DNA from: Acidibrevibacterium fodinaquatile
GTDB lineage: Bacteria > Pseudomonadota > Alphaproteobacteria > Acetobacterales > Acetobacteraceae
Assembly (NCBI RefSeq): GCF_003352165.1
Contig: NZ_CP029178.1
Span: 1-45,771 of the forward strand
Length of the DNA stretch: 45,771 nt
Direction: 5' to 3'
In this document: positions 7,330-42,840 of the stretch, piece after piece
Numbering within the stretch: the stretch's first letter is position 1
Layout of the letters: the number at the start of each line of letters is the position of its first letter
Program-made: the position numbers and the translations under genes
The notes under the pieces: generated by a model
Told to the model about the DNA's origin: nothing
Database searches by the model: none
What the model saw: the letters and a program-made list of their open reading frames with translations, nothing else

Positions 7330-10300
7330 CTATGCTGCCAGCGCCTTGGCCATGGGCAAGCTGGCAAAGATGCCCTTAAGCGGCCGGAATCCGTCCGGGC
7401 CAAGGCTGGTATCGGCGCCCCAGAGATAGTCGCCAGTCAGGTTGATGTGCTGCCAGCCGAGCGGCGCGAGGTGGGCGAGCAATTCGTCCGGCATCGTTTC
7501 GCCACGGCGACGTATAGCGTCAAGGGCACGGCCGAGATAGACGGTGTTCCACAGCACGATGGCCGCTGTTACCAAGGCCAAGCCGCTGGCCCGGTGCTGC
7601 TGGGCCTGGGCAGTGCGGTCGTGCAGGCGCCCGAGGCGGTGAAAGCATACGGCACGGGCCAGTGCATTGTGGCTCTCGCCCTTGTTGAGTTCAGCCGTTG
7701 CCTGCCGCCGAAGTTGCGGCTGTTCAAGCCAGTTCAGGGCGTGAAGGGTTCGTTCGATGCGCCCGATTTCTCGCAACGCGAGGGCCAATCCATTCTGCCG
7801 GGGATAGGCACCGAGGCGCTTGAGCATCAACGAGGCACTGACCGTGCCCGTGCGCACCGAGGCCGCCAGCCGCAGCACGTCGTCCCATTGTGCCGTGATC
7901 AGCTTTTCGTCCGGGCGCCCGGCGACGAACGGCGCCAGGGCGGGCCAGGTCGAGGCGGGGCCGAATGCGTAAAGTTTGCGGTCCGCGAGGTTGGGGATGC
8001 GCGGCGCGAAACGGAAGCCTAGGAGATGTGCCAAGGCGAAGACGTGCTCGCTCACGCCGCCGCCGTCCGTATGATGGACGGCAACGCTGAGATCCGCCTC
8101 GTGATAGAGCAGCCCGTCTATGACGTATGCCGCTTCGCCCGAGGGCGGAATAGATGCCGTGTGGAACGGCGCGTGGCGCGACGAGACGTGGGTGTAGAAC
8201 AATGCGGACGGTTCCCGCCCGTGGCCGTGCCGGGCATTGTAGGCGCCCAGGGCCTCGCCGCGCCCGGCGGTCAGGAACGCCTGGCCATCGGAACTGGAGA
8301 CATCGGCGAACCCGAACCGCGCTGCGAGTGGCTGGCGCTGCTGGGCATTGACCACCATGGCCAGCGCTTGGCGGTACGTGTCCTCGCGCAGGTGCCAGCC
8401 TGCGGTCCAGGCGAGTTCCCGGTAGCTCGCGACCGAGCAGGCTTCGGCCATGCGGGTCAGGCCGAGGTTGGTCGCATCGGCCAGCACGCCGGTCAGAACG
8501 ACGCGCGGATCGTCAGCCGGCATTCCTGTGTGCAGGTGCGTGAAGGCGTTCGCGAATCCGGTCCAGCTATGAACGTCGGCCAGCACACTGGTGATGCGGG
8601 CACTTGGCGCCATTGCATAGAGCCGCTCGGCGGCAGCCTCCGCCTCCTCCGGGGTGATCGCCTTGAGGGGCGTGATCTTCAGTTCGTCGCCCTTGATCCT
8701 GACATCTTCCAGCTTGTCCGCAGCGGCCTTGGCGTCGATCTCCCCCATGCGCCGGTCCAGCAGGGCGCGGCGCTCGTTCAGGTACTCCTCCGCCGTCGCT
8801 GGCACGGCGACCGGCAACGGCCCGGCCTCGCGCATGGCGGCGAACAATGCGGGCGGGATGAGCTGGTCCTCGATGGCGCGCCATTGGCGGCTGCCCTCGA
8901 CCCAGATGTCGCCCGAACGCATGCTGTCCCGCAGCGTGAGCAAGGTGGCGGCCTCCCACGCGCGGCGGTGTTCCGTACTCCCGTCGCCGCCGCTGTCCCG
9001 CACGGCTTTTCGCCAGGCAGGGCGGAGGAAGCTAACCGGAAGGCCCTCGGGCCATTTCCGGCTCCCGCTCTTGTATGCTTCACGCAACAACTCGACCGCG
9101 CGCAACGTTGCTGCGGCGGCGGGCACGGCGCGAAGCTCGAAGGTATCCAAGAACAGCGGACCGAGACGGTGCAGCACTGGCCAGGCACGCGTGGCCAGTG
9201 CCGGCAGGTCCACTTTGTCCGGGCGGCTGAGGCGTTCGGCTTCGGCGACGCTTTCGGCGAGCTTTTCCCAGCCGATGGACGACACCACGGCGCCGTCGAG
9301 GCCGGCTTCCCCCTCGGTTGCCTTGGCCGCGATCAGGGCGGCGCCGAGCCTGGCGAAGAGCCTGACCTTGTCGTTGACGGCACGGGCGTCTCGCAGGACA
9401 GCGTTTTCCTCGCGGGCCTCGGCGCGGCGGAACATCCGGCCGATAGCACGGTCGAACAAGCCGACCCCGTCATCGGTCAGCCGCGCCGTGGTATCCAGCA
9501 CGGTCGCGACCAAAGTCGACCTGCGACGGAGCGGCGAGAGCGCGCGCAGGTGCTGGGCGGTAAAACGGCCGCCCTCACGGGCAAGTTTGCGCAGCCGCTC
9601 CGGATGCACCCCTTCAGCAACGGCGGGATCGAGGCCGATGGTGCGCAGGTGTGCGAGCTGATCGACAATCCGCTTGAGGGCCTTGTAGCCGGGCGCGCCA
9701 GATGGCTGGCGCGTCCAGGCCAGCACACTCGTCGATGCGTCCTCTTTGGACCCGAGCAGAGCGTCCAGGGCTTCGGTCTGTGCGGAGGACAGGTTGCGGG
9801 TGAGCTGTCCGGCGACGTGGCGCTCGGCCACGACCAGGACGGCGGCGATCAACCGTTCGATCACGCTCGAACCCGGGGCGAGGATCTTGCGCCGGCGCAG
9901 TTCGTCCGTCAGCGTCGCGGCGACAGTGAGGGCGTTCGTCGTCGCCAACGCCACCGGCAAAAGCCAAGCCAGCATCTCGCGGCCATGGCAGTGCGCGTAC
10001 ATCTGGAAGCCGAACCCCTCCCGCAGCCCGTCAAGCTGCTCGCGCCGCGTTTGGGGCCGGGCCGCATACGCGGCGAGAGCGTCGGCGCTGACCCGTAGTT
10101 GGTTGGCAACGAAGTTTAGGGCTGTCTCCGGGATGGCCTCGCCGGGCCGGAGCAAGCGGCCGGGATAGCGGAACGCACAGAGCTGGAGGGCATAGCCAAG
10201 CTGGTTATGACCGCCGCGGCGGCGATCGAGCGCCGCAAGGTCGGCAGCAGCTAATGTCCAGTGGCGGATGAGGTCGGCTTCGATGACCGGAAGGGCAAGC

Positions 10301-10344
10301 AGGTTCTCAAGCTGCGCATCGGTGAGCGCACGGCGTCTCGGCAT
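7330..10344 (-). CDS. tnpA: Tn3-family transposase A
   Basis: A 1004-residue transposase of normal Tn3 length. The N-terminal DNA-binding region starts MPRRRALTDAQLENLLALPV. The C-terminal DDE catalytic region includes SSDGQAFLTAGRGEALGAYN, FYTHVSSRHAPFHT and the HLLGFRFAPRIPNLADRKLY block. It makes replicative cointegrates that the neighbouring resolvase would separate. The frame is intact and both ends of the element are present, so it may still be active. Confidence 0.93.
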   Translation of the reverse strand: MPRRRALTDAQLENLLALPVIEADLIRHWTLAAADLAALDRRRGGHNQLGYALQLCAFRYPGRLLRPGEAIPETALNFVANQLRVSADALAAYAARPQTRREQLDGLREGFGFQMYAHCHGREMLAWLLPVALATTNALTVAATLTDELRRRKILAPGSSVIERLIAAVLVVAERHVAGQLTRNLSSAQTEALDALLGSKEDASTSVLAWTRQPSGAPGYKALKRIVDQLAHLRTIGLDPAVAEGVHPERLRKLAREGGRFTAQHLRALSPLRRRSTLVATVLDTTARLTDDGVGLFDRAIGRMFRRAEAREENAVLRDARAVNDKVRLFARLGAALIAAKATEGEAGLDGAVVSSIGWEKLAESVAEAERLSRPDKVDLPALATRAWPVLHRLGPLFLDTFELRAVPAAAATLRAVELLREAYKSGSRKWPEGLPVSFLRPAWRKAVRDSGGDGSTEHRRAWEAATLLTLRDSMRSGDIWVEGSRQWRAIEDQLIPPALFAAMREAGPLPVAVPATAEEYLNERRALLDRRMGEIDAKAAADKLEDVRIKGDELKITPLKAITPEEAEAAAERLYAMAPSARITSVLADVHSWTGFANAFTHLHTGMPADDPRVVLTGVLADATNLGLTRMAEACSVASYRELAWTAGWHLREDTYRQALAMVVNAQQRQPLAARFGFADVSSSDGQAFLTAGRGEALGAYNARHGHGREPSALFYTHVSSRHAPFHTASIPPSGEAAYVIDGLLYHEADLSVAVHHTDGGGVSEHVFALAHLLGFRFAPRIPNLADRKLYAFGPASTWPALAPFVAGRPDEKLITAQWDDVLRLAASVRTGTVSASLMLKRLGAYPRQNGLALALREIGRIERTLHALNWLEQPQLRRQATAELNKGESHNALARAVCFHRLGRLHDRTAQAQQHRASGLALVTAAIVLWNTVYLGRALDAIRRRGETMPDELLAHLAPLGWQHINLTGDYLWGADTSLGPDGFRPLKGIFASLPMAKALAA

Positions 10345-10437
10345 AGCGGGTGTCCCAAATAGAGTGTAGTCTGTCTGCTACGGCCCGCACCCGAGCAGGA
10401 ACAAGGGTTTGCCGGGCGTCCGGCGGGATGAGTTCAA

Positions 10438-11055
10438 TTGGGACAGCGCGTCGCCCTCTACTGCCGGGTTTCGACTGCCGACCAGTCCTGCGCGCGCCAG
10501 GAACGGGATCTCGCCGCGTTCGCCGAAAGGTCCGGCTACGATGTGGTCGGTACGTTCAAGGAAACCGGCTCGGGCGTGAAACAGGACCGGGCCGAGCGGC
10601 GCAAGGTCATGGCGCTCGCCCAAGCCAGGCACATCGATGCGGTTCTGGTGACCGAGCTGTCCCGCTGGGGCCGCAGCACGACGGATCTGCTCGCGACGCT
10701 GAAGGAGTTGGAAGCCCGGCGCGTATCGGTGATCGCGCTCAACGGCATGGCATTCGACCTCGCCACGCCGCACGGACGGATGATCGCGACCGTGCTGGCC
10801 GGTATCGCGGAGTTCGAGCGCGAGCTGATACAGGAACGCATTCGCTCCGGTATCGCCGCAGCCAAAGCCAGGGGGAAACGTCTCGGCCGCCAGCCCGGAC
10901 AGCGACTGAAATCGGATCGGCTCGCGCCAAAGGTCATCGCGCTCATCGGTCAGGGCCGCAGTTACCGCTTGGTCGGGCGGGAGCTTGGTTTGAGCAAGAA
11001 CACCGTGGCAGCCATCGCCAAACGGAGCCGGCCAACAACCAACCCTGTCAGTTAA
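10438..11055 (+). CDS. tnpR: serine resolvase of transposon A
   Basis: A 205-residue serine recombinase. The catalytic Ser is in YCRVSTADQ; LSRWGRSTTDLLATL and the E-helix FERELIQERI follow, then a C-terminal helix-turn-helix (YRLVGRELGLSKNTVAAIAK). The start is a TTG at 10438; no ATG gives the conserved N-terminus. It is divergent from tnpA, with res expected in the 93-bp gap, where it would resolve cointegrates and repress both genes. Confidence 0.9.
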   Translation: MGQRVALYCRVSTADQSCARQERDLAAFAERSGYDVVGTFKETGSGVKQDRAERRKVMALAQARHIDAVLVTELSRWGRSTTDLLATLKELEARRVSVIALNGMAFDLATPHGRMIATVLAGIAEFERELIQERIRSGIAAAKARGKRLGRQPGQRLKSDRLAPKVIALIGQGRSYRLVGRELGLSKNTVAAIAKRSRPTTNPVS

Positions 11056-11120
11056 TCCCGGCCATGTTCCCGCTACGTGCCGCGAACCGTGCTATCCTGC
11101 CCGTTCTATGGCGTACCCCC

Positions 11121-11408
11121 TCTATGTCTCCAACACGCCGATCTCCGCACGCCGCGCCGCCGATGCCATCCGCGCACACTGGCGGATCGAAACCACCTCC
11201 CACTACAGCCGCGACGTCACCTTCGGCGAAGACCGCTCGCGCATCCGCACCAACCCCGGCGTGTTCGCACGCTTGCGCAGTTTCGGTTTCAACATCCTTA
11301 CCGCACATCGTACCAACACACTCGCCCAGGACCGCTACCGAGCCGCCCTCGCCGGTATCGATAATATGCTCGCGCTGCTCGCTATCTCATAGCATTGAAC
11401 AGCCTTGG
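11121..11408 (+). mobile_element. ISAs1-family remnant (3' end of transposase)
   Basis: It matches the terminal part of the complete element at 19239-20523 in reverse orientation: the coding tail beginning YVSNTPISARRAADAIRAHW and the end sequence TTGAACAGCCTTG (11396-11408). The 5' side is cut by the inverted repeat of transposon A. Confidence 0.85.
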
Positions 11409-11683
11409 TGGAACTCCCCCCCGACACCTGGCGGATTTGGTATCACAATGCCGCAGGTCCAGAACGGCACTACGATCAGCTTAGTTGACTCAATAATTAC
11501 CGGCTACGACACAGGAATAGTTGTTGGAGAGCACGCACATATTCGTAATCTTACTGTCTTGCTAGCCCGCTATGCTATCTATCTGGTCCCATCTTATCAT
11601 GACATTCACATGGGTGGCGTCCTGGTGCAGTGGAGCAATTATATACTCTTTTGTCCAGGAGGAACTGTGAACTATGCCAATAA
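11409..11683 (+). pseudogene. gene fragment, beta-helix-like
   Basis: A fragment open in one frame, trapped between the ISAs1 end and the left repeat of transposon B. The translation (MPQVQNGTTISLVDSIITGY, later VVGEHAHIRNLTVLLARYAI) has short alternating beta-strands with Gly/Asn turns, as in right-handed parallel beta-helix proteins (pectin-lyase fold). It lacks both ends and is less G+C rich than its surroundings. The parent protein is unknown. Confidence 0.4.
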
Positions 11684-11716
11684 GGGGTCATCGTGGATTC
11701 TGTACCAAATCCTACG

Positions 11717-12307
11717 CTAAGGATTGGCGAGTGAACGTCTTACAGACGTGCGTCCGATCTTAAGCTGCTTAGCGATGGCCGATTTGCTCAAGCCATTTTG
11801 GGCGAGTTCACGGATTTGCGTTGCTTTTCCGGCGATTTTTGCCGGACGGCCATGCGGACGGCCATCCTTGCGAGCTTGAGCAATCCCCGCCTTGACCCGA
11901 TCACGCAGGATGTCGCGCTCAAACTCCGCGAATACGGCCAACATGCCGGCGAAAGCCCGGCCGGCGGGCGTTGTCAGATCGAGCGCCTCGCTCAGGGACA
12001 CGAAGCCCACGTTCAGCGCGGTCACCTCTTGTAGAGTGGAGACGAGATCGACAAGTGAGCGGCCCCAGCGATCGAGCCGCCAAACGACGATGACGTCGAT
12101 TTCTCTTCGACGGGCAGCGCGCAACAATTCCTCGCGACGCGGGCGGGTCTTGGCCCCGGAGCCGACTTCTTCGATCGTCGACGCGATGCTCCACCCTCTG
12201 CGTTCGGCGTAAGCGCGCATGGTTTCGAGCTGCATGGGCAGCGTCTGTTGGTCATGCGTCGACACTCTGGCGTAGAGGGCGACTCGCTCGGCTTCGACCC
12301 TGGCCAA
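11717..12307 (-). CDS. tnpR: serine resolvase of transposon B
   Basis: A 196-residue serine recombinase: the catalytic Ser is in YARVSTHDQ, then WRLDRWGRSLVDLVSTLQEV, FAEFERDILRDRV and a C-terminal helix-turn-helix (GLSKSAIAKQLKIGRTSVRR). It ends four bases inside the left inverted repeat. It is divergent from tnpA, with the res site expected in 12308-12423. It is clearly different from the resolvase of transposon A. Confidence 0.9.
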   Translation of the reverse strand: MARVEAERVALYARVSTHDQQTLPMQLETMRAYAERRGWSIASTIEEVGSGAKTRPRREELLRAARRREIDVIVVWRLDRWGRSLVDLVSTLQEVTALNVGFVSLSEALDLTTPAGRAFAGMLAVFAEFERDILRDRVKAGIAQARKDGRPHGRPAKIAGKATQIRELAQNGLSKSAIAKQLKIGRTSVRRSLANP

Positions 12308-29529: not shown

Positions 29530-29604
29530 ATGCAGTGGGTAAAGCCAGCTTGGTGCGATCTTCGCTTGGGGTTCGAAGTGACCGCCTATGTCTACGTTCG
29601 CTGA
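29530..29604 (+). CDS. pqqA: PqqA precursor peptide
   Basis: A 24-residue peptide starting MQWVKPAWCDLRLGFE and continuing VTAYVYVR. It matches known PqqA peptides (MWKKPAFIDLRLGLE, VTLYISNR) along its length, including the cross-linked pair: Glu16 and Tyr20, the same E-x3-Y spacing. In PQQ synthesis PqqE joins these two side chains and the cofactor carbons derive from them. An AAGGAA site precedes the ATG. It is unusually close to the family standard given how unusual its neighbours are. A longer frame from 29422 is rejected because the peptide family starts here. Confidence 0.93.
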   Translation: MQWVKPAWCDLRLGFEVTAYVYVR

Positions 29605-29619
29605 TCATTGACTAGGGGA

Positions 29620-29642
29620 GGGGGTTTAAAGAACCCCCTTTT
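29620..29642 (+). terminator. terminator/attenuator between pqqA and pqqD
   Basis: Stem GGGGGTT/AACCCCC with loop TAAAG followed by TTTT, 16 bp after the pqqA stop and 20 bp before pqqD. A partial terminator here would give excess precursor peptide over enzymes, as known for other pqq operons. Confidence 0.85.
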
Positions 29643-29661
29643 CTAAAGAGAGGAACCGTCC

Positions 29662-29949
29662 ATGAACAACGGCGGCGTTATGCAGCGAGAAAATATTATT
29701 GAACTAGATCCAAAATTCCTTTTCCGCTGGGAAGAGCCGCAACAGGCCTACATCCTGCTCTACCCAGAAGGTCTCGTGAAGCTGAACGTCACGGCCGGTG
29801 AAATCCTTGCCGTGGTTGCGAACTCTGCCGAAATCGGCGCCCTTATCGAGCATTTTGCTGCGAAATATCAAAACCCGGATATCGCTGATGATATCCTGGC
29901 ATTCCTGGAGGAAGCCCATGAACGAGGCTGGATCCGAGTTAAGCGCTGA
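29662..29949 (+). CDS. pqqD: PqqD peptide chaperone
   Basis: 95 residues, normal for PqqD. It has a winged-helix RiPP recognition element: NIIELDPKFLFRWEEPQQAY, ILLYPEGLVKLNVTAGEIL and GALIEHFAAKY fit the family (LRPHYRLQWEEAQ..YVLLYPEGMV.LN..A..IL). It binds PqqA and presents it to PqqE. GAGAGGAA precedes the ATG. The end overlaps pqqE by 32 bp, so the two are coupled and their products expected in equal amounts. Confidence 0.93.
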   Translation: MNNGGVMQRENIIELDPKFLFRWEEPQQAYILLYPEGLVKLNVTAGEILAVVANSAEIGALIEHFAAKYQNPDIADDILAFLEEAHERGWIRVKR

Positions 29950-31057
29950 AACACCGGTAACGGTCGATGGCCAGGGCCTCCCGCTCTGGCTGCTGCTCGA
30001 ACTGACCTATCGCTGTCCGTTGAAATGCCCATGGTGCAATAACCCGCTGGATTTTGACCGCTATCAGAGTGAATTGACCACCGAGGAATGGGTCGACGTC
30101 CTGCGGCAAGGGCGTAGTCTTGGTGCGATCCAGCTTGGTTTCTCTGGCGGCGAACCTCTGCAACGGCGCGACCTCGAAGATCTCGTAGGGGAGGCGACTC
30201 GTCTTGGTTATTACACAAACCTCATCACATCAGGTATTGGCCTGAACGAAACCCGCCTCGCGTCTCTTCGGAAAGCTGGTCTCAAACAAATACAGCTCAG
30301 CCTGCAGGCATGCGATGCCGAGCTTAATAATCGCCTAGTTGGCGCGGATGCCTACGATCATAAGCTGGCTGCTGCGCGCGCAATCAAGGAGCACGGGTTT
30401 CCGATGGTTCTTAACGTGCCGGTTAGCCGGCACAATATTGATCAGGCTTCCGCGTTGTTGGCGTTCGCCGAGGAACTCGGGATCGAGTATGTCGAGTTTG
30501 CGAACCTACAATATTATAATTGGGCTCTCGTAAATCGCGCCGATCTTCTGCCTACCCGCGAACAGCTCGCCGCCGCCGAAGAAGTCGTCGCCAAGGCACG
30601 TGCCCGCGTCGGGCAGCGCATGACGATCTATTTTGTCATCACTGATTACTATGATGAGCGTCCGAAAGCCTGCATGAAAGGTTGGGGAAATATCCATCTC
30701 ACTATCGGCCCAGATGGCGCGGCGTTACCCTGCCAGGAAGCACGGGTCATCGAAGGTTTGGAATTCCCTAACGTGCGCGCTCATGACCTCGGATGGATCT
30801 GGCGGGAATCGCCGGTATTCCAAAAATTTCGCGGAGAACACTGGATGCAGGAGCCGTGCCGGTCCTGCTCTGAACGAGGACATGACTATGGAGGTTGTCG
30901 CTGCCAGGCGTTTCTGCTGACCGGCGATGCGACCAGCACCGACCCGGTGTGCAGCAAGTCGCCGCATCATCACCTCATCGAGGAAGCGGTTGCTGCCGCG
31001 ATGACCAATCGTCCGAATCGGTTGATCATGCGTCAGCGCGGGCTCAATCGGGCGTAG
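29918..31057 (+). CDS. pqqE: PqqE radical-SAM PqqA cross-linking enzyme
   Basis: 379 residues from the ATG at 29918 with GGAGGAAG upstream. The radical-SAM cluster motif CPLKCPWC is near residue 33, followed by the SAM-binding GFSGGEPLQRRDLEDLV. The SPASM region has the auxiliary-cluster cysteines in KACMKGWG, ALPCQEARV, EPCRSCSERG, GGCRCQAFLLTGDA and DPVCSKSPHH. These are signature PqqE blocks, so it should form the Glu-Tyr carbon-carbon bond in PqqA with PqqD bound. All expected ligands seem present. No pqqB, pqqC or pqqF follows. Confidence 0.95.
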   Translation: MNEAGSELSAETPVTVDGQGLPLWLLLELTYRCPLKCPWCNNPLDFDRYQSELTTEEWVDVLRQGRSLGAIQLGFSGGEPLQRRDLEDLVGEATRLGYYTNLITSGIGLNETRLASLRKAGLKQIQLSLQACDAELNNRLVGADAYDHKLAAARAIKEHGFPMVLNVPVSRHNIDQASALLAFAEELGIEYVEFANLQYYNWALVNRADLLPTREQLAAAEEVVAKARARVGQRMTIYFVITDYYDERPKACMKGWGNIHLTIGPDGAALPCQEARVIEGLEFPNVRAHDLGWIWRESPVFQKFRGEHWMQEPCRSCSERGHDYGGCRCQAFLLTGDATSTDPVCSKSPHHHLIEEAVAAAMTNRPNRLIMRQRGLNRA

Positions 31058-31066
31058 AAAGTCGCC

Positions 31067-31171
31067 ATGTTGCCGCATGACAGCCTGGTGGGCACCTTGT
31101 TGGCCGGCGTTGTGTTGACCATGGTGCTCGCCGTTGTCGCCCACGTCTTAGCATCCTCATCGGGACTGTAG
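31067..31171 (+). CDS. 34-residue single-span membrane peptide
   Basis: A short frame between pqqE and the next gene: MLPHDSLVGTLLAGVVLTMV then LAVVAHVLASSSGL, a single hydrophobic helix with a short polar start and a His near its end. Weak GAAAG upstream, 9 bp after the pqqE stop. It might be a small subunit of the membrane protein that follows. No family known to me. Confidence 0.45.
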   Translation: MLPHDSLVGTLLAGVVLTMVLAVVAHVLASSSGL

Positions 31172-31190
31172 CGACGAAAATGGTTGCCAC

Positions 31191-31694
31191 ATGTTTCTGA
31201 TGGTTGCCGATCCTTTTCTGCGCGTCCTTCACATCATGGCGATCATCGTATGGATGGGGCATAACTGGGCGAACGTGATTTCTCGGCCGCGATATCGGCG
31301 GGTCCTGCCAGATGAACCGCCGGCGGCAAGACGTGAACTGTTTATCGCGGCGGCACAACGTGAACATGGCGTGTTTCGCCACGCATCCCTAGTCGCGCTG
31401 ACCACCGGGATTTTGATGTTGCTCGACCGCGGCCAACTGACCGAAGCGCTTCGGCTCCATGGGGCGAGCGCACCGCTTGGAATCGGCGTTTGGCTGGGCT
31501 TCATCATGGTCGTTAATCTTTGGTTCGTGTTGTGGCCAAATCAGAAGAAGGTGCTCGGCTTCGTCGCCGCCTCTGACTACGAGCGTCTCCGCTGCACCAG
31601 GGTGACGTTTCTGTCGTCGCGAACGAACACGATTCTCTCCATGCCCGCGATCTTTTTTATGGTCATGGGGGCCCATGGCGCGGCGCTGTTCTGA
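31191..31694 (+). CDS. standalone urate-oxidase-N-terminal-like (PuuD-like) membrane protein
   Basis: 167 residues, about four membrane helices (residues 8-28, 62-80, 94-114, 145-163). It resembles the membrane N-terminal domain of bacterial PuuD (Urate_ox_N): LRVLHIMAIIVWMGHNW in helix 1, NLWFVLWPNQKKVLGF and SRTNTILSMPAIFFMVMGAH at the end. His14, His24 and His63 could be ligands, perhaps for haem. There is no cytochrome c domain as in PuuD. It may pass electrons from a soluble partner to the respiratory chain; that is inference. The next ATG overlaps its end by 20 bp. Confidence 0.7.
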   Translation: MFLMVADPFLRVLHIMAIIVWMGHNWANVISRPRYRRVLPDEPPAARRELFIAAAQREHGVFRHASLVALTTGILMLLDRGQLTEALRLHGASAPLGIGVWLGFIMVVNLWFVLWPNQKKVLGFVAASDYERLRCTRVTFLSSRTNTILSMPAIFFMVMGAHGAALF

Positions 31695-32775
31695 GCACCG
31701 AACTGTGATCAGCTTTGCCAGCGGCCCCGCTGTTTTGCCACCGGAAGTGCTGAGTGAGGTGCAAGAGGCAGTTGGTGCGTGGGACGGCAGCGGCCAGTCC
31801 GTTCTGGAACTGCCATTTGGCGGACCGGATTATGCCACGATCCAAAGCGAGTTTGAGGCAGAAGCACGCGCGCTCCTGTCGTTACCGCCGACGTATAAGA
31901 TATTGCTATTGCAAGGTGGCGCGTTCGCACAATTTCGCCTAGTACCCCTCAATCTGCTCCGCTCCACCGATTGCGCCGCCTATGTCGAAACCGGCTACTG
32001 GTCGGCACGCGCCATCGCAGAAGCGCGGGAGGTTTGCCGTGTTGCCGTCGTCGCCCAAGCGGACGCGGCAATACCGCCCATCGCAACTTGGCAATTGCCG
32101 CGCGACACGGTGTATTGCCATGTTACCGGCAACGAAACAGCGGATGGGGTACAGATGCACCGCTTCCCAGCGCTGGGCGAGGTGCCATTGGTCGCAGATT
32201 TGACTGCCGATTTGTTCACAGGCCCGATCGACATCCAGCCATTTGGCGTAATCTATGCCAGCGCACAGAAGAATCTCGGCGCGCCGGGGCTGACCGTAGT
32301 CATCGTGCGCGAGGACCTGCTCGGCCGTGTTCGTGCCGAAGTTCCTGCTCCCTTCGATTATACGCGCCAAGCCAGTACCGGCAGCCGGGTGAACACGCCG
32401 CCGATCTTTTCGGTCTTCGTCGCCAGCCGGATGCTCAAATGGCTGGGTCGGCAGGGCGGGCTCACGGCGGCGGCGGCGCGGTGCGAGCGGCGAAGCCGCA
32501 TGCTCTATCACGTCATTGACGCTAGCCAGCTTTATACCTGTCCTGTCCGCGCCGCGGATCGCTCCCGGATCAGCGTCTGCTTTCATCTGCCCGACGCCGC
32601 GCAGGATGCGGCTTTCCTGGCTGAAGCCCAGCGCCGGGGTTTATGGCATCTGGCCGGTCACCCAACACGTGGCGGCATCCGCGCCTGTCTCTATAATGCA
32701 ATGCCGGAGAGCAGTGTTGCAATACTCGCTGATTTCATGCAGGAATTTGACAAGTCGTGCCCGGCACTCACATAG
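31675..32775 (+). CDS. SerC-like aminotransferase with altered substrate pocket
   Basis: 366 residues, clearly of the phosphoserine aminotransferase family from end to end (FASGPAVLPPEVLSEVQEAV, YKILLLQGGAFAQFRLVPLN, PFGVIYASAQKNLGAPGLTV, NTPPIFSVFVASRMLKWL, IRACLYNAMPESSV). The PLP lysine is in AQKNLG. The SerC phosphate-binding His-Arg (ISHRG in the family) reads LPFGG here, and the later GHR is GHP; the carboxylate-binding Arg of GGIRA is kept. So it probably transaminates a non-phosphorylated amino acid. A GTG at 31705 is an alternative start. It is not expected to replace housekeeping SerC. Confidence 0.85.
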   Translation: MARRCSEHRTVISFASGPAVLPPEVLSEVQEAVGAWDGSGQSVLELPFGGPDYATIQSEFEAEARALLSLPPTYKILLLQGGAFAQFRLVPLNLLRSTDCAAYVETGYWSARAIAEAREVCRVAVVAQADAAIPPIATWQLPRDTVYCHVTGNETADGVQMHRFPALGEVPLVADLTADLFTGPIDIQPFGVIYASAQKNLGAPGLTVVIVREDLLGRVRAEVPAPFDYTRQASTGSRVNTPPIFSVFVASRMLKWLGRQGGLTAAAARCERRSRMLYHVIDASQLYTCPVRAADRSRISVCFHLPDAAQDAAFLAEAQRRGLWHLAGHPTRGGIRACLYNAMPESSVAILADFMQEFDKSCPALT

Positions 32776-32791
32776 CTTGGCGCGGCGTGCC

Positions 32792-33607
32792 ATGGGAGGC
32801 GTGGGACCGGTGATTCGTCGCGCTCTCACCCGCGCGGCGCTACGCATCGCCGAGAAAGTCTCTCGTCCGACACCACCCCCCGCGTTGCCGGCTTCCGCCA
32901 TGGGCCTGACATTTATCAATCCACTTGGGTTAGCCGCAGGATTCGATGATAGTGGCAAACTTCTCGGCGCTCTTGCATTGTGTGGCTTCGGCTCAATCGA
33001 GATTGGAACGCTGCGCACTCCAGCGATGCTAAGCGCCGCGCTGACTCATATCAGTTGCCACCCACGGCACGCCCGAATTGGCATAAATCTTGCCGCAACC
33101 GACACCGGTGACACGGACGAAACGGCAGAACGATGGCGCACTCTGATGGGTTTGGCGTGGGATACCGCGGATTATTTGGTAGCGAACCTTTCCGGGCCAC
33201 GTGGCGCGCCAGTCCAGGTGGACTCGCTCATCACCAAGGTGGCGATGGTCGGGGCGACATGCAGAAGTTTGGCGCGCGCGCGCGGTTCGCGCACGCCGCT
33301 TGCAGTCAAATTCGCGCTCGAACAAGTGCCAACCGCTGCGCTTGGTATTCTGCGCGACTGTGGAGTGGACGCGATGATCGGCGTTTCGACGGATCACCTC
33401 GTCATCACCCGCGCGGTCCGGGCCTTGGCCCCATTGCAGTTGATCTCGGTCGGGGGTGTACGGGACGGCAAGGATATCGCGACCAGGCTCACCGCGGGCG
33501 CTGCTCTGGTTCAGATCCACAGTGTTTTCTGTCGCCGCGGGCCCTTCTTTCCCCGGCGCATGCTTGTCGATCTGGCTGAGAGAATGATGCCGCTCGGCGG
33601 CGGGTAA
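32792..33607 (+). CDS. dihydroorotate-dehydrogenase-like FMN enzyme lacking orotate-site residues
   Basis: 271 residues from the ATG at 32792 (MGGVGPVIRRALTRAALRIA). TIM-barrel landmarks of class 2 PyrD are kept: FINPLGLAAGFDDSGK, FGSIEIGT, RIGINLAA, DYLVANLSGPRG, LAVKFALE, and the FMN phosphate site ISVGGVRDGKDIATRL then AGAALVQIHSVF. The orotate site is not kept: GFDK becomes GFDD, the NRMGFNN loop is missing, NISSPNT is NLSGPRG (catalytic Ser and Asn lost) and TNTT is VSTD. It probably binds FMN and oxidises something else. It starts 16 bp after the previous gene. Confidence 0.82.
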   Translation: MGGVGPVIRRALTRAALRIAEKVSRPTPPPALPASAMGLTFINPLGLAAGFDDSGKLLGALALCGFGSIEIGTLRTPAMLSAALTHISCHPRHARIGINLAATDTGDTDETAERWRTLMGLAWDTADYLVANLSGPRGAPVQVDSLITKVAMVGATCRSLARARGSRTPLAVKFALEQVPTAALGILRDCGVDAMIGVSTDHLVITRAVRALAPLQLISVGGVRDGKDIATRLTAGAALVQIHSVFCRRGPFFPRRMLVDLAERMMPLGGG

Positions 33608-33612
33608 GGAGG

Positions 33613-34791
33613 ATGCCCGTCGCAACAATTCTGGTGGCGCCGTTCGCGGTTGGTCTGCTGTTTCAACTATGGCTGTTGGCTCGCCAGATCCGGTATCTCA
33701 GGCACCATACCGAGGGAAAGGTCCGCAACTATGGGTCGGCTCGTGCAACCTTCACCGCCGTGGCGGCAAGCCTCGATGTCGCATTGACCATCTGGCTCAC
33801 GCTGGGTGGGGGGGTCGCCTGGATCGCCAGATTCTGGCGTGACCGCCCGGCTGCAGCGGGCGGTATGGTAGCCTCCGTGGTGCTCGCGGGTGCCGTGCTC
33901 GATGCTACCCTCTCTATCGGTCGCACCTATCTCCTCGCTGCGCGTCTGGACGGGGTGCGCCCACCGCTTAGAATGATTCTTGCCCGCGCCATGCGGCCCA
34001 TGGTGGTGAAAATCGCTCTAGCCACCGTCGTGGGCGAGACATTCGCTGCGGCGATCAGCATGGCGCCGTCCATCTGGTGGCTTGGGGCGGCGCTGCTCTG
34101 GATGGTTGGAATCGTCGCCACAGCATGGTTGGCGCTTGATCCTTCGCACCGAGGCGGGATGACCGCTTCTCAACGACTGGTGGATCCCCTCCTTGTCGCA
34201 CGCCTCGCCCCTATCATGTCCCGGTTTGGCCTCAGCGGCGACGAGATTCGTGTGACCACCGCCCCCCCTGGAATGCAGCGAGTCAACGCAAATCTGCTCG
34301 GCGTCGGTCGATTCCGGCGTGTCACAATGAGCGATACCTTGATTACCTTGCTCTCTCCTGATGAGATAGAAGCCGTGTTGGCGCACGAAGTCGGCCATTG
34401 GCGTTGCTATCATGTCGGTCGCGATCTGGCATATCGTGCGCTACTAACGTTTGCCGGTTTCGCCGTGCTGGCGCTGGCCATGCGATATCCGGCACTGTTC
34501 ACCGCGCTCGTCAATGCGCCACCCTCCCCGGCGGCATGGCTGGCCGTGGCGGGTGCGTTTTTGCCGCTGACCGCGATGCTCGTGACACCGCTTCAGGCGC
34601 ATTGGCGCCGCCATATGGAATATGAAGCCGATGATTTCGTCGCGCGCCATGCAGATCCACGAGCCTTGATCAGCGCACTCGAGAAGCTCGATGCGGCCAA
34701 TGCGACCGCCGCCTCCGCCGATCCGCTTTATGCGCGTTTCTATAATGCCCACCCGAGTCGAATAGACCGCATCCAGAGGCTCTGGCGCTGA
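33613..34791 (+). CDS. M48 membrane metalloprotease (Ste24-like)
   Basis: 392 residues, about six to seven membrane helices, with the zinc motif HEVGHW near residue 256, the third ligand in YEADDFVARHA, and the C-terminal HPSRIDRIQRLW block, which is typical of Ste24/CAAX protease 1 rather than HtpX. GGAGG precedes the ATG, 5 bp after the previous stop, so it is in the same operon. In a pathway with a modified peptide, a peptidase is required; PqqF/PqqG (M16) is absent here, so this enzyme may release the cross-linked residues from PqqA. That role is inference. Confidence 0.85.
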   Translation: MPVATILVAPFAVGLLFQLWLLARQIRYLRHHTEGKVRNYGSARATFTAVAASLDVALTIWLTLGGGVAWIARFWRDRPAAAGGMVASVVLAGAVLDATLSIGRTYLLAARLDGVRPPLRMILARAMRPMVVKIALATVVGETFAAAISMAPSIWWLGAALLWMVGIVATAWLALDPSHRGGMTASQRLVDPLLVARLAPIMSRFGLSGDEIRVTTAPPGMQRVNANLLGVGRFRRVTMSDTLITLLSPDEIEAVLAHEVGHWRCYHVGRDLAYRALLTFAGFAVLALAMRYPALFTALVNAPPSPAAWLAVAGAFLPLTAMLVTPLQAHWRRHMEYEADDFVARHADPRALISALEKLDAANATAASADPLYARFYNAHPSRIDRIQRLWR

Positions 34792-35069
34792 CCTGCCCCC
34801 GGTCGTCCCTCGGTCATAACGAGAGTCCTTGGGGTTGATAGTGGTCGGCTTCTGGTTAAGCAAGCGCGCTGGGCACGGAGCCCTCTCTCGGAGACGGGTG
34901 CGTGGAGTGGCTTTTATGCGGCGTTGATGTCATGCCCGATAAATCGATATCGAATTTTAACATCGCGCCCGGCTATGCCCCTCTCCGTTGCTCTCGAAGG
35001 AGCACAAAGTTGGCTGGTCCGGAAGGCCGACTTTCGCCAGGGCCACGCTCCGCGCAGGAAGGAAGAGCC
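34792..35069 (+). other. 278-bp gap with small hairpins
   Basis: No gene is convincing. Hairpins include TGCTC-TCGAA-GGAGCA near 34995 and AAAGTTGGC/GCCGACTTT at about 35007-35035. This could be a leader with its own promoter for the next four genes, or a decayed stretch. Confidence 0.4.
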
Positions 35070-35513
35070 ATGTCGCAATCGCTCGCTTCTCCGACCGAGA
35101 CGCCGATGGCACAAGCCGGCGAGGTGCTGCTCGAAGATCTCGAGCCTCCACCCGGCGGCCGTGCCTTGGTGATCGGTCACCACCGGCTGGATGTTTTATG
35201 CGGTCTGATCCGCCAGGGATGCACCCAGGCAGCCGAACTTTGTTCCCATGACCGGGGCGGGGCGGGCGCGGAATCGGCGCAAATCGTCGTCCTTATCGAT
35301 CCTGCCTCACTCGAGGAGGCCGCTTCCCTGCTGGCGACAGCCTGGCGCGCGCTGGATCATGGCGGTCGAATCCTGGTGCGAGATCCGAGTGGGCGCCGGT
35401 ATCAGCTAGAAGGCCTTCTCCGGGCGCAGGGATTCATCGCTATTTCCGCGCGCGAGACGCCGCGCGGCACGATCATACTCGGCCGGCGACCTTTCCCGCT
35501 TGCCCATGGCTGA
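35070..35513 (+). CDS. Rossmann-like protein, possible methyltransferase relative
   Basis: 147 residues from the ATG at 35070, preceded by GGAAGGAAGAG. The pattern RALVIGHHRLDVLCGLIRQG (strand-helix with a degenerate glycine loop), IVVLIDPASLEEAASLLATA, GGRILVRDPSGRRYQLEGLL and the end strand TIILGRRP resembles the core of SAM-dependent methyltransferases, but the SAM motif GxGxG is not present and it is short. It may be a scaffold or a degenerate enzyme. The function is unknown. Confidence 0.5.
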   Translation: MSQSLASPTETPMAQAGEVLLEDLEPPPGGRALVIGHHRLDVLCGLIRQGCTQAAELCSHDRGGAGAESAQIVVLIDPASLEEAASLLATAWRALDHGGRILVRDPSGRRYQLEGLLRAQGFIAISARETPRGTIILGRRPFPLAHG

Positions 35514-35522
35514 GCGCAAGCC

Positions 35523-35759
35523 ATGCCTGCCGCGCGCCATCCCACACCACGTCCGCCCATGCGGGTTCCCCCTTGGGCAACGGCGACACTGCTGCTGCTC
35601 TGTGCCTGGGGGGCGGTCTGGCTTGGCACCCGTCTCGTAGACGCCATCCGGCCTCTTTTGCCAACGATGATGGTGGTGAGCCGGAATGTCCAACCGCTCC
35701 CCGGAAAAAAATCAGAGACGGATGATAATGCCTCACACCCAATCCAGCCGACGCGATAA
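35523..35759 (+). CDS. small single-span membrane protein
   Basis: 78 residues: a Pro/Arg-rich start (MPAARHPTPRPPMRVPP), one membrane helix (ATATLLLLCAWGAVWLGTRL) and a polar C-terminus (SETDDNASHPIQPTR), probably periplasmic. It begins 9 bp after the previous stop. No clear ribosome binding site, so translational coupling is likely. Unknown function; it could be a subunit of a membrane complex with the PuuD-like protein. Confidence 0.5.
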   Translation: MPAARHPTPRPPMRVPPWATATLLLLCAWGAVWLGTRLVDAIRPLLPTMMVVSRNVQPLPGKKSETDDNASHPIQPTR

Positions 35760-35767
35760 GTGCCGCG

Positions 35768-36055
35768 ATGCGCCCTCTCGATGCGCAATCGCGCTGGCAT
35801 CTGCGGGTGCTGGGAAAGCAGATCGTCTTCCTGGTGCTAATCGGCTTGCCGACCTTACTGGTCGATCGCCGTCCGCCGTTGTTGTATTTTCTACAATTGC
35901 AGAGAATGTTTAGCCTTCTTGCGCTGGTCCTGCTCACTCTTGGCGTCGTCACGCGACAGCCGTTCACGCGGGCCAGCTTTTGTGTCTGGGATCACGTCGC
36001 GGCCTCTGTGCTGCTTGCAACCGGCTGCTCTCTGGTCTTGTCGTTTATGCGCTAG
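35768..36055 (+). CDS. small membrane protein, three predicted helices
   Basis: 95 residues with hydrophobic stretches at about 17-32 (KQIVFLVLIGLPTLLV), 46-62 (RMFSLLALVLLTLGVV) and 73-92 (WDHVAASVLLATGCSLVLSF). It follows the previous gene by 8 bp and precedes the DapA-like gene by 37 bp. No family recognised. It adds to an unusually membrane-rich biosynthetic operon. Confidence 0.5.
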   Translation: MRPLDAQSRWHLRVLGKQIVFLVLIGLPTLLVDRRPPLLYFLQLQRMFSLLALVLLTLGVVTRQPFTRASFCVWDHVAASVLLATGCSLVLSFMR

Positions 36056-36092
36056 CCGCATCCGCGATGGGTTAGTTCTCCGGAGTTGCCTC

Positions 36093-37058
36093 ATGGATAA
36101 AATTGGCGCGCTGTCTGGCTCCATCGCTGCCCTGGCAACGCCGTTTTGTGACCATGCCGTCGATACCGATGCTTTGGCAATGCTCTGCGAACGCCAGATC
36201 CTCTGCGGCACGGCGGCACTTCTCGTCTGCGGCAGTACGGGCGAGGCGTCTTCACTGTCTATGCCAGAATATTTCGAGGCTGTTCGCCTGGTGGTGGCCG
36301 TAAGCGACGGGCGGATTCCGGTGATTGCCGGCTGCAGCGCAGGCGCGACCGAGAGAGCGGTCGAAGGTGCGCGTCTCGCCGCATCTGCCGGCGCCGATGC
36401 CTTGCTCTGTGCGCCGCCAGCCTATGTGAAGCCAACACAGGAGGGGATTTTCGCTCATGTCCGCGCGGTCTCGCACGCGACCAATCTCCCAATCATACTT
36501 TATGACGTGCCTGGCCGCACCGGGGTTTCAATCGCTGACGAGACAGTTGCGCGTCTTTTCGAAAGATCGTTGATAATAGGGGTAAAGGATGCCACCGCCG
36601 ATCTCGCTCGCCCACCACGTCTTCGCGTGCTCTGCGGAGAGGGTCTCCTGCAAATGAGTGGAGACGACGCGACGGCCGCGGCGTATCGCGCAATGGGCGG
36701 CGCCGGCTGTATCTCGGTAACCGCCAATGTCACACCGGCCTTGTGTGCCGCGCTGCATCGCGCCTGGGAAAGCGGTCATCTCCCCCGCTTCGCGGCATTG
36801 CGTGATATGCTGGCAGAATTGCACCGCGCGCTATTTCTGGAGAGCAATCCGATTCCGCTCAAGGCGGCACTCGCCATGCTGCGGCTATGCGGCCCTGGTC
36901 TGCGGCTGCCGTTGACCACCGCAGCACGGCCGACGCGTGAGCGTTTGGCGGCGACCCTGGCGCGGATCGCGGGGAATGAGGAGCGCGAGGCGAGGGATTT
37001 CCTAACGTTGGTGCCACCGAACCGGAGTGGCTTTTCGTTGCGTTGCAGCACCCTATGA
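36093..37058 (+). CDS. DapA-family pyruvate-dependent aldolase/synthase
   Basis: 321 residues, normal for 4-hydroxy-tetrahydrodipicolinate synthase. Landmarks: GSIAALATPF, CGSTGEASSL (Thr of the catalytic relay), ILYDVPGRTGVSI (Tyr, and Arg of the carboxylate site), GVKDAT with the Schiff-base Lys, SGDDATAA and NPIPLKAALAML. All catalytic residues are present, so it should form a pyruvate imine. It may be a lysine-pathway enzyme or a relative using another aldehyde; in this operon a condensation with pyruvate is an attractive idea but unproven. The last 35 residues extend beyond the usual end. Confidence 0.85.
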   Translation: MDKIGALSGSIAALATPFCDHAVDTDALAMLCERQILCGTAALLVCGSTGEASSLSMPEYFEAVRLVVAVSDGRIPVIAGCSAGATERAVEGARLAASAGADALLCAPPAYVKPTQEGIFAHVRAVSHATNLPIILYDVPGRTGVSIADETVARLFERSLIIGVKDATADLARPPRLRVLCGEGLLQMSGDDATAAAYRAMGGAGCISVTANVTPALCAALHRAWESGHLPRFAALRDMLAELHRALFLESNPIPLKAALAMLRLCGPGLRLPLTTAARPTRERLAATLARIAGNEEREARDFLTLVPPNRSGFSLRCSTL

Positions 37059-42198: not shown

Positions 42199-42840
42199 AT
42201 GAATGTCATCGTCAGCCAATCGAAGCTACGCAGCCAACGGATCGTCGATCGCCCATCGCGCAAGGAGGCGGAAGCGGCAGTTCGCACTCTACTGCGCTGG
42301 GCTGGCGATAATCCCGGTCGTGAGGGTCTACGCGATACACCAGCGCGTGTCGCCCGCGCCTATGAGGAATTTTTTGCCGGCTATGATACTGATCCGGTAG
42401 CACTGCTCACCCGAACCTTTGAGGAGGTGGAAGGTTACGACGAGATCGTGCTGCTGCGTAATATTCGGCTCGAAAGTGTCTGTGAACACCACATGGCACC
42501 GATCATCGGGCGCGCGCATGTGGCCTATCTGCCGGCGCATCGCGTCGTCGGTATCAGCAAGCTTGCCCGCGTTGTCGAGGCCTATGGCAAGCGGCTGCAG
42601 ATTCAGGAGAAGCTAACCGCACAGATCGCTGCCACCATAAACGAAGTTCTGGAACCGCGCGGAGTGGCGGTGGTGATCGAGGCGGCGCATCAATGCATGA
42701 CCACACGCGGCGTCCATAAACCCGGGGTGACGATGACCACCAGCCGTATGCTCGGCGCCTTCCGCGACGATCCAGCAACGCGGCGGGAATTCTTCGCCAT
42801 GCTCCAAACCCACTCACCATCAAGTGGCTGCCAGGACTAA
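42199..42840 (+). CDS. folE: GTP cyclohydrolase I
   Basis: 213 residues, canonical FolE: zinc ligands in [20 protein letters not shown] (Cys, His) and [14 protein letters not shown] (Cys), and [20 protein letters not shown] plus LTAQIA typical of the family. It converts GTP to 7,8-dihydroneopterin triphosphate for folate or other pterins. AGGAGAAG precedes the start. On an accessory element it is either a backup copy or supplies a pterin/deazapurine; no queuosine or folate genes are nearby. Confidence 0.93.

Follow-up and report, generated by a model that had tools for sequence, protein, structure and literature searches.

A complete contig of 45,771 bases from Acidibrevibacterium fodinaquatile (NZ_CP029178.1; this whole stretch is the window referred to below) carries a gene set in which pqqA, pqqD and pqqE are followed by genes encoding a PuuD-like membrane protein, a SerC-like aminotransferase, a PyrD-like flavoprotein and an M48 protease (Table 1). 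Synthesis of pyrroloquinoline quinone (PQQ) is taken to need O2, and in the known route PqqC requires it, while PqqB is generally held to require it too. The set described here, hereafter the module, is probably a plasmid-borne, oxygen-regulated system for O2-independent late steps of PQQ synthesis. The argument draws on gene content, conservation, phylogeny, a regulatory box, residue changes and co-occurrence with UbiV.

From pqqA to the M48 gene (29530-34791), all frames are open and lie on one strand, and most neighbors overlap or are within about 20 bases of each other. The first-pass annotation had recognized a standard pqqA with an E-x3-Y motif, pqqD and pqqE, followed on one strand by the PuuD-like, SerC-like, PyrD-like and M48 genes, and profile matches confirm these assignments. 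It had also reported that pqqB and pqqC are missing from this gene run, and the profiles for both indeed match only contig C1 of the host, not the contig analyzed here (C3). The DapA-like gene that it included is present but not in the conserved set, and a 34-residue membrane peptide was overlooked. It missed the oxygen link, which comprises the FNR-type box, the company of UbiUV and the quinone-type dehydrogenase fold. The host chromosome carries a complete pqqA-B-C-D-E operon (L006), in which pqqB (376 bits), pqqC (388) and pqqE (548) all score above cut-off. Such an operon had been foreseen as a finding that would undercut the proposed pathway if the plasmid set were also silent or degenerate; the chromosomal set is there, but the plasmid set is not degenerate, and the idea of a decaying copy was rejected because its frames are open.

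A scan of genome contigs with the PqqE of the window gave 56 loci, of which 47, together with a plasmid of Methylovirgula sp. HY1, make up 48 module loci; the remaining nine (L056-L064) are canonical pqq operons. The first-pass annotation had pointed to pqqE neighborhoods of this kind as worth searching for, and the search recovered PqqE with PuuD-, SerC- and PyrD-like proteins together in 43 of the 48 loci; in six of the 48, pqqB and pqqC lie alongside. By single gene, PqqD and the PuuD-like protein are each present in 47 loci, the SerC-like protein in 46, the PyrD-like protein in 43 and the M48 protease in 17, and two loci (L048 and L017) end at a contig edge. The members belong to the Alpha-, Beta- and Gammaproteobacteria, with one metagenome-assembled genome from the Rokuibacteriota. 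The notion that the set is unique to the window was rejected because related loci were found by the PqqE scan, and the concern that the genes after pqqE might not be conserved together elsewhere proved unfounded, as the set recurs in other genomes. This conservation well beyond the host supports the earlier proposal of another route from the cross-linked Glu-Tyr unit to PQQ. The conserved unit stops at M48 or, in most lineages, at PyrD. The DapA-like gene and three small open reading frames (ORFs) that precede it were left out of the set, and DapA was rejected as a member, because none of the four has a BLAST match in the other loci.

The short membrane peptide belongs to the conserved unit in many loci. 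A single-helix peptide of 30-41 residues, with the motif P-x-[DEN]-[STH]-x(2,3)-[GS]-[TS] at its start, occupies 29 of 48 pqqE-PuuD gaps, and look-alikes are seen by eye in three more (L026, L034 and L065). It is absent from the gap in the Hyphomicrobium/Rhodoblastus/Methylovirgula group, where gaps are 0-75 bases. The 34-residue form in the window has no match in NCBIfam or PHROGs.

In a maximum-likelihood tree, a branch with support of 100/98 separates 50 module PqqE sequences from 41 canonical ones. Of the canonical sequences, 32 come from module genomes, and the plasmid and chromosomal PqqE proteins of the host are 47% identical. The canonical regions were sampled at 33 sites in module genomes and do not cover every such site; in one step, pieces shorter than 60% of the query were dropped. 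L024 was omitted from the genome searches, its isolate name being the same as that of L021.

The SerC-like and PyrD-like enzymes differ from their namesakes at the substrate side. In the SerC-like proteins, K198, D174, W102 and R335 are kept in 49 of 49 aligned rows (47 distinct; L067 and L068 duplicate L011 and L014). H41 is replaced by F and R42 is lost in every row, and R329 is lost in 46; H328 is kept. In true phosphoserine aminotransferase, as described in the available text of two papers, these lost residues bind the phosphate (PMC12011608) or the side-chain carboxylate (PMC6797613). The substrate residues of phosphoserine transaminase are lost and those for the pyridoxal phosphate (PLP) cofactor are kept.

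With the PyrD-like protein, no NCBIfam dihydroorotate dehydrogenase (DHODH) model reaches its cut-off. Compared with two canonical relatives, the lysine and glycines on the flavin mononucleotide (FMN) side are kept, all 45 rows (43 distinct, with L028, a PyrD-like protein of 396 residues, left out of the alignments) lack the loop RxxEDRAxINRMGFNN, and serine stands at the position of the catalytic serine, Ser175 in E. coli, in only 12 of 45. The predicted structure (pLDDT 92.5) has as its best Foldseek match the class 2, quinone-linked E. coli DHODH 1f76 (TMq 0.79). The protein is an FMN barrel of this fold that lacks the orotate loop. In the M48 protease, H258, E259 and H262 are invariant in the 14 sequences aligned.

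These residue changes bear on one alternative, that the plasmid has acquired paralogues from primary metabolism (serine, pyrimidine and lysine genes) unrelated to PQQ. The curated names point that way: by NF003764 (403 bits, cut-off 253) the SerC-like protein is a phosphoserine transaminase, and TIGR00674 names dapA. In addition, the DapA-like gene and the three ORFs do not recur with the module. However, the joint occurrence of PqqE, PuuD-, SerC- and PyrD-like proteins in 43 of 48 loci and the altered specificity residues in all SerC-like and PyrD-like rows make this explanation very unlikely for the PuuD-, SerC- and PyrD-like genes, and SerC and PyrD as housekeeping paralogues were rejected on the residue changes.

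The AlphaFold2 model of the PuuD-like protein (pLDDT 90.8) is a bundle of four long helices, for which Foldseek returned no solved relative at E <= 0.001. All 47 module proteins carry H24, E58 and H59, and almost all of the 28 sister-family proteins have L, A and L at these positions. In the available text of the work on PuuD itself, that enzyme is thought to oxidize urate via electrons passed through a cytochrome c, without H2O2, although its authors also weigh a superoxide alternative (PMC4562309). The module protein resembles part of the PuuD membrane domain but has four long helices rather than eight, lacks the cytochrome c domain and has its own H24, E58 and H59. A wider PuuD-like family of about 200 residues (L093-L120) is found in 85 of 398 genomes of the phylum at E <= 1e-10, besides two module members, and shares N109, W115, P116, Q118, R144 and N146 with the module protein.

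An FNR/ANR-type dyad stands upstream of pqqA in the window. With up to one mismatch it occurs three times there, against 0.53 expected by shuffling; L010-L015 have it in a similar position, with 0-1 mismatch. The pattern TT[GA]A[TC]-N4-[AG]TCAA, widened after the result for those six loci, occurs within 300 bases upstream of 20 of 43 module pqqA genes (0.10 expected by shuffling), a count in which related loci are not independent; module pqqA was found in 43 of 49 sources, and the other six gave none. In canonical controls the dyad precedes one of 14 pqqA genes in L006 and L056-L064, and one of 32 pqqA-like peptides of the module genomes themselves (p=1.8e-5 against 20/43). The latter control originally comprised 33 peptides, but the one from G128 belongs to the module pqqA and was excluded. 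In the Hyphomicrobium loci examined, the box takes the form TTAAC-N4-GTCAA, which resembles the NnrR box.

UbiV, a component of the O2-independent UbiT-UbiU-UbiV pathway to ubiquinone, which is also present in the host, scores above cut-off in 43 of 47 module genomes. Among genomes with pqqC, it is found in 41 of 44 that have the module and 14 of 68 that do not (p=5e-15, kinship not corrected). The control comes from a 398-genome sample of the phylum, in which 70 genomes have pqqC and two module members were removed; genomes were taken as module-free on a low or absent PuuD-like score. Any UbiV occurs in 11 of 41 control genera. A distribution test of this sample with the PuuD-like profile gave only two clear module members, because the wider family of short PuuD-like proteins matches as well. 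In the flanks of the 48 loci, ubiU and ubiV occur together in 16, ubiD in 14 and a Crp/Fnr regulator in nine, the flank families being BLAST clusters named from single members, with not all recurrent families named.

A scheme consistent with these data would begin with PqqE and PqqD, both intact in the plasmid set, cross-linking Glu and Tyr of PqqA, a reaction well established for this family. The cross-linked unit would then be freed by peptidases, of which the M48 protease is probably one here. The PuuD-like protein might replace PqqB, oxidizing the ring with new oxygen presumably drawn from water and passing electrons to the respiratory chain. The SerC-like PLP enzyme would work on an amino group of the cross-linked unit rather than on phosphoserine. 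In place of PqqC, which uses O2, the PyrD-like FMN enzyme would dehydrogenate the rings, with the quinone pool as electron acceptor. At low oxygen the operon would be turned on by an FNR-type activator. We infer every reaction after PqqE, as well as which regulator acts and what the product is; a membrane oxidase of the PuuD type and a quinone-type FMN dehydrogenase would be the expected make-up of an O2-free replacement. If the module does make PQQ in the absence of O2, this would simply explain denitrification fed by methanol, along with other quinoprotein metabolism under anoxia, and three enzyme families would acquire new reactions. The gene set and its markers are now defined.

The arrangement of pqqB and pqqC helps to weigh this scheme against its alternatives. 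Both genes adjoin the module in six loci (L038, L040, L041, L044, L051 and L052), with the order pqqB-C-A-D-E-PuuD-SerC-PyrD-M48 in L040 and L041, and each of the six genomes shows a single PqqE, that of the module. If the normal pathway works there, the module PqqE must feed it, which supports the view that the module would use the same precursor as PQQ, the cross-linked Glu-Tyr unit. It may be that the module makes another quinone cofactor or metabolite from this unit for use at low oxygen, such as a transaminated analogue; we consider this unlikely, and equally so the more specific version in which the product is a new redox cofactor akin to PQQ, bearing a transaminated side chain and made under an FNR-type anaerobic switch. 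A transaminase should take off an amino nitrogen that PQQ retains, pqqB and pqqC persist in nearly all module genomes, and PqqE matches more than once in 33 of 47 module genomes, so that the module mostly brings its own PqqE. On the other side, one PqqE serves both the module and pqqBC in the six loci above, and no candidate user protein appears among the recurrent neighbor families that were named.

Less likely still is that the extra genes tailor or assist PQQ made by PqqBC, through modification, membrane transfer or loading, rather than replacing PqqBC. The retention of pqqC in most module genomes would fit, as would the membrane location of two module components and the contiguity of pqqBC and module in some loci. 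However, an anaerobic signature would be hard to understand if PqqC, which depends on O2, must act first, PqqE is duplicated in most module genomes, and G128 has the module back to back with a full canonical operon.

Several observations, besides the curated name of the SerC-like protein and the limits on the box counts given above, weigh against the module as an O2-independent route to PQQ. Above cut-off, pqqC is found in 44 and pqqB in 43 of 47 module genomes; as pqqBC is kept in nearly all of them, the module might not make PQQ alone. Only three genomes suggest independence from pqqBC: G060 and G091, with neither gene, and G075, which has no pqqB, a partial second pqqE and a pqqC match that starts after position 45. 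All three cases would be accounted for by missing contigs or sequence error. The PyrD-like gene is missing in L012 and L065, where the SerC-like and M48 genes are nearly adjacent, and L043 has PqqE and the PuuD-like protein but neither the SerC-like nor the PyrD-like one; the three are real variants or assembly faults. No box precedes 23 of the 43 module pqqA genes, nor the module pqqA of G128, and the strict FNR box gives 7 of 43 against 0 of 32 canonical (p=0.018). UbiV is not above cut-off in four of 47 module genomes. It is present in 121 of the 398 phylum genomes, with the module clear in only two, the host among them, and in all six genomes of the host genus, three of which have a close PyrD-like match; a contrast within the genus is uninformative because all six carry UbiV whether or not they have the module. 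Within the scheme, the step given to the PLP enzyme is the least secure, and the scheme does not account for a transaminase in PQQ synthesis.

The first-pass annotation had called the cluster undescribed, which does not hold: the core and the proposal of O2-independent PQQ synthesis are already in print in Li et al. 2025 (PMC12423496). The available text of that article describes pqqAED-puuD-serC-pyrD in Hyphomicrobium denitrificans (Hden_0548-0553), speculates that the cluster completes PQQ without O2 and names other denitrifiers that have it. It also reports that in regulator mutants the extra pqqA, pqqD and pqqE (Hden_0551-0553) fall together with denitrification and anaerobic ubiquinone genes. 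The window shares with that cluster its core genes, the co-occurrence with a complete pqqABCDE and the anaerobic link, with pqqA, pqqD and pqqE likewise lacking pqqB and pqqC and followed by genes resembling the PuuD N-terminal region, SerC and PyrD. The PqqE of the window also falls in the same clade as several Hyphomicrobium sequences, a comparison in which H. denitrificans itself was not included. The window differs in its plasmid location, in its M48 protease and small membrane peptide, and in having the FNR-type box instead of the form seen in Hyphomicrobium. The main text of PMC12423496 contains no instance of "M48", and residue, tree, box or distribution tests, the M48 and peptide parts and a plasmid instance were not found in what is available of it. 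In the open full-text literature, no further article was found that deals with a second PQQ gene set or an O2-independent one. In the available text of a 2024 study of anaerobic methanol use, PQQ-dependent methanol dehydrogenase is held to be of limited use in strict anoxia because of the O2 need, and other dehydrogenases are suggested as a possibility (PMC11102522).

Other known systems are related in part. Canonical pqqABCDE has pqqA, pqqD, pqqE and presumably the same cross-link; the module lacks pqqB and pqqC and its PqqE clade is separate. The UbiT-UbiU-UbiV pathway, which adjoins the module in 16 of 48 loci, is likewise an anaerobic twin that replaces O2-dependent hydroxylation, although the module has no U32 protein. 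Mycofactocin clusters also use a radical SAM enzyme and a chaperone on a small peptide, but precursor and radical SAM family differ. A creatininase-family protein resembling MftE lies beside the module in five loci (L037, L040, L041, L042 and L051) and is perhaps another releasing peptidase; the L040 protein scores below the MftE cut-off.

Table 1. Features of the module and its surroundings. Positions are those of the window unless a locus is given.
Feature	Position	Strand	Support or remark
FNR/ANR-type dyad TTGAT-N4-ATCAA	29422..29435	+	Center about 101 bp upstream of pqqA; only exact match in the window
pqqA, 24-residue precursor with E-x3-Y	29530..29604	+	TIGR02107, 31.7 bits (cut-off 20); PF08042
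Hairpin followed by T4 between pqqA and pqqD	29615..29644	+	Possible attenuator (weak)
pqqD, peptide chaperone	29662..29949	+	TIGR03859, 74.9 bits (cut-off 46)
pqqE, radical SAM/SPASM cross-linking enzyme, module clade	29918..31057	+	TIGR02109, 509.7 bits (cut-off 381); tree
Single-helix membrane peptide, 34 residues	31067..31171	+	Conserved in pqqE-puuD gaps of related loci
PuuD-like four-helix membrane protein, 167 residues, half of Urate_ox_N	31191..31694	+	PF06181, 33.2 bits (cut-off 26.9)
SerC-like PLP aminotransferase	31675..32775	+	NF003764, 403 bits (cut-off 253); TIGR01364, 358 bits (below its cut-off of 444)
PyrD-like FMN barrel, class 2 (quinone) DHODH fold	32792..33607	+	PF01180, 60.6 bits
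M48 membrane metalloprotease with HExxH	33613..34791	+	PF01435
DapA-like gene	36093..37058	+	TIGR00674, 274.6 bits (cut-off 206); outside the conserved set
SerC-like to M48 interval without PyrD-like gene	L012:12836-13082		
SerC-like to M48 interval without PyrD-like gene	L065:4251-4302		

The hairpin between pqqA and pqqD lies in a region (29600-29665) with a predicted folding energy of -24.2 kcal/mol (z -2.08); a terminator scan gave no plus-strand site there. The three small ORFs between the M48 and DapA-like genes (34902-36055) are on the same strand and have no family. Elsewhere in the window, a GTP cyclohydrolase I gene (42199-42840) is close to genes for a major facilitator superfamily transporter and a heptosyltransferase.

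The window is one of four contigs of a 4.04 Mb host genome. It encodes a RepA-type initiator, ParA and a MobA/MobL relaxase on a complete contig, from which it is read as a plasmid. No plasmid record matching the cluster at the DNA level was found. The mobile elements of the host resemble those of Acidiphilium plasmids, a hint at most. A second, lone pqqC is present on the host chromosome, distant from the pqq operon (L125:6931-7698; G000:C1:2547942-2548652, minus strand), and several module genomes have two pqqC matches. In G094, G096, G098, G103 and G104 the pqqC profile match spans one in-frame stop and perhaps runs from pqqC into the next gene. At L043, from Paramagnetospirillum caucaseum, a module-type PqqE, pqqA and the PuuD-like gene are followed by a gene for a FIST-domain protein (9974-11952). 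On the Methylovirgula plasmid, the flanks of the module hold cbpA/cbpB, which form another radical SAM peptide pair (L009:11194-12773), and heavy-metal resistance-nodulation-division efflux genes.

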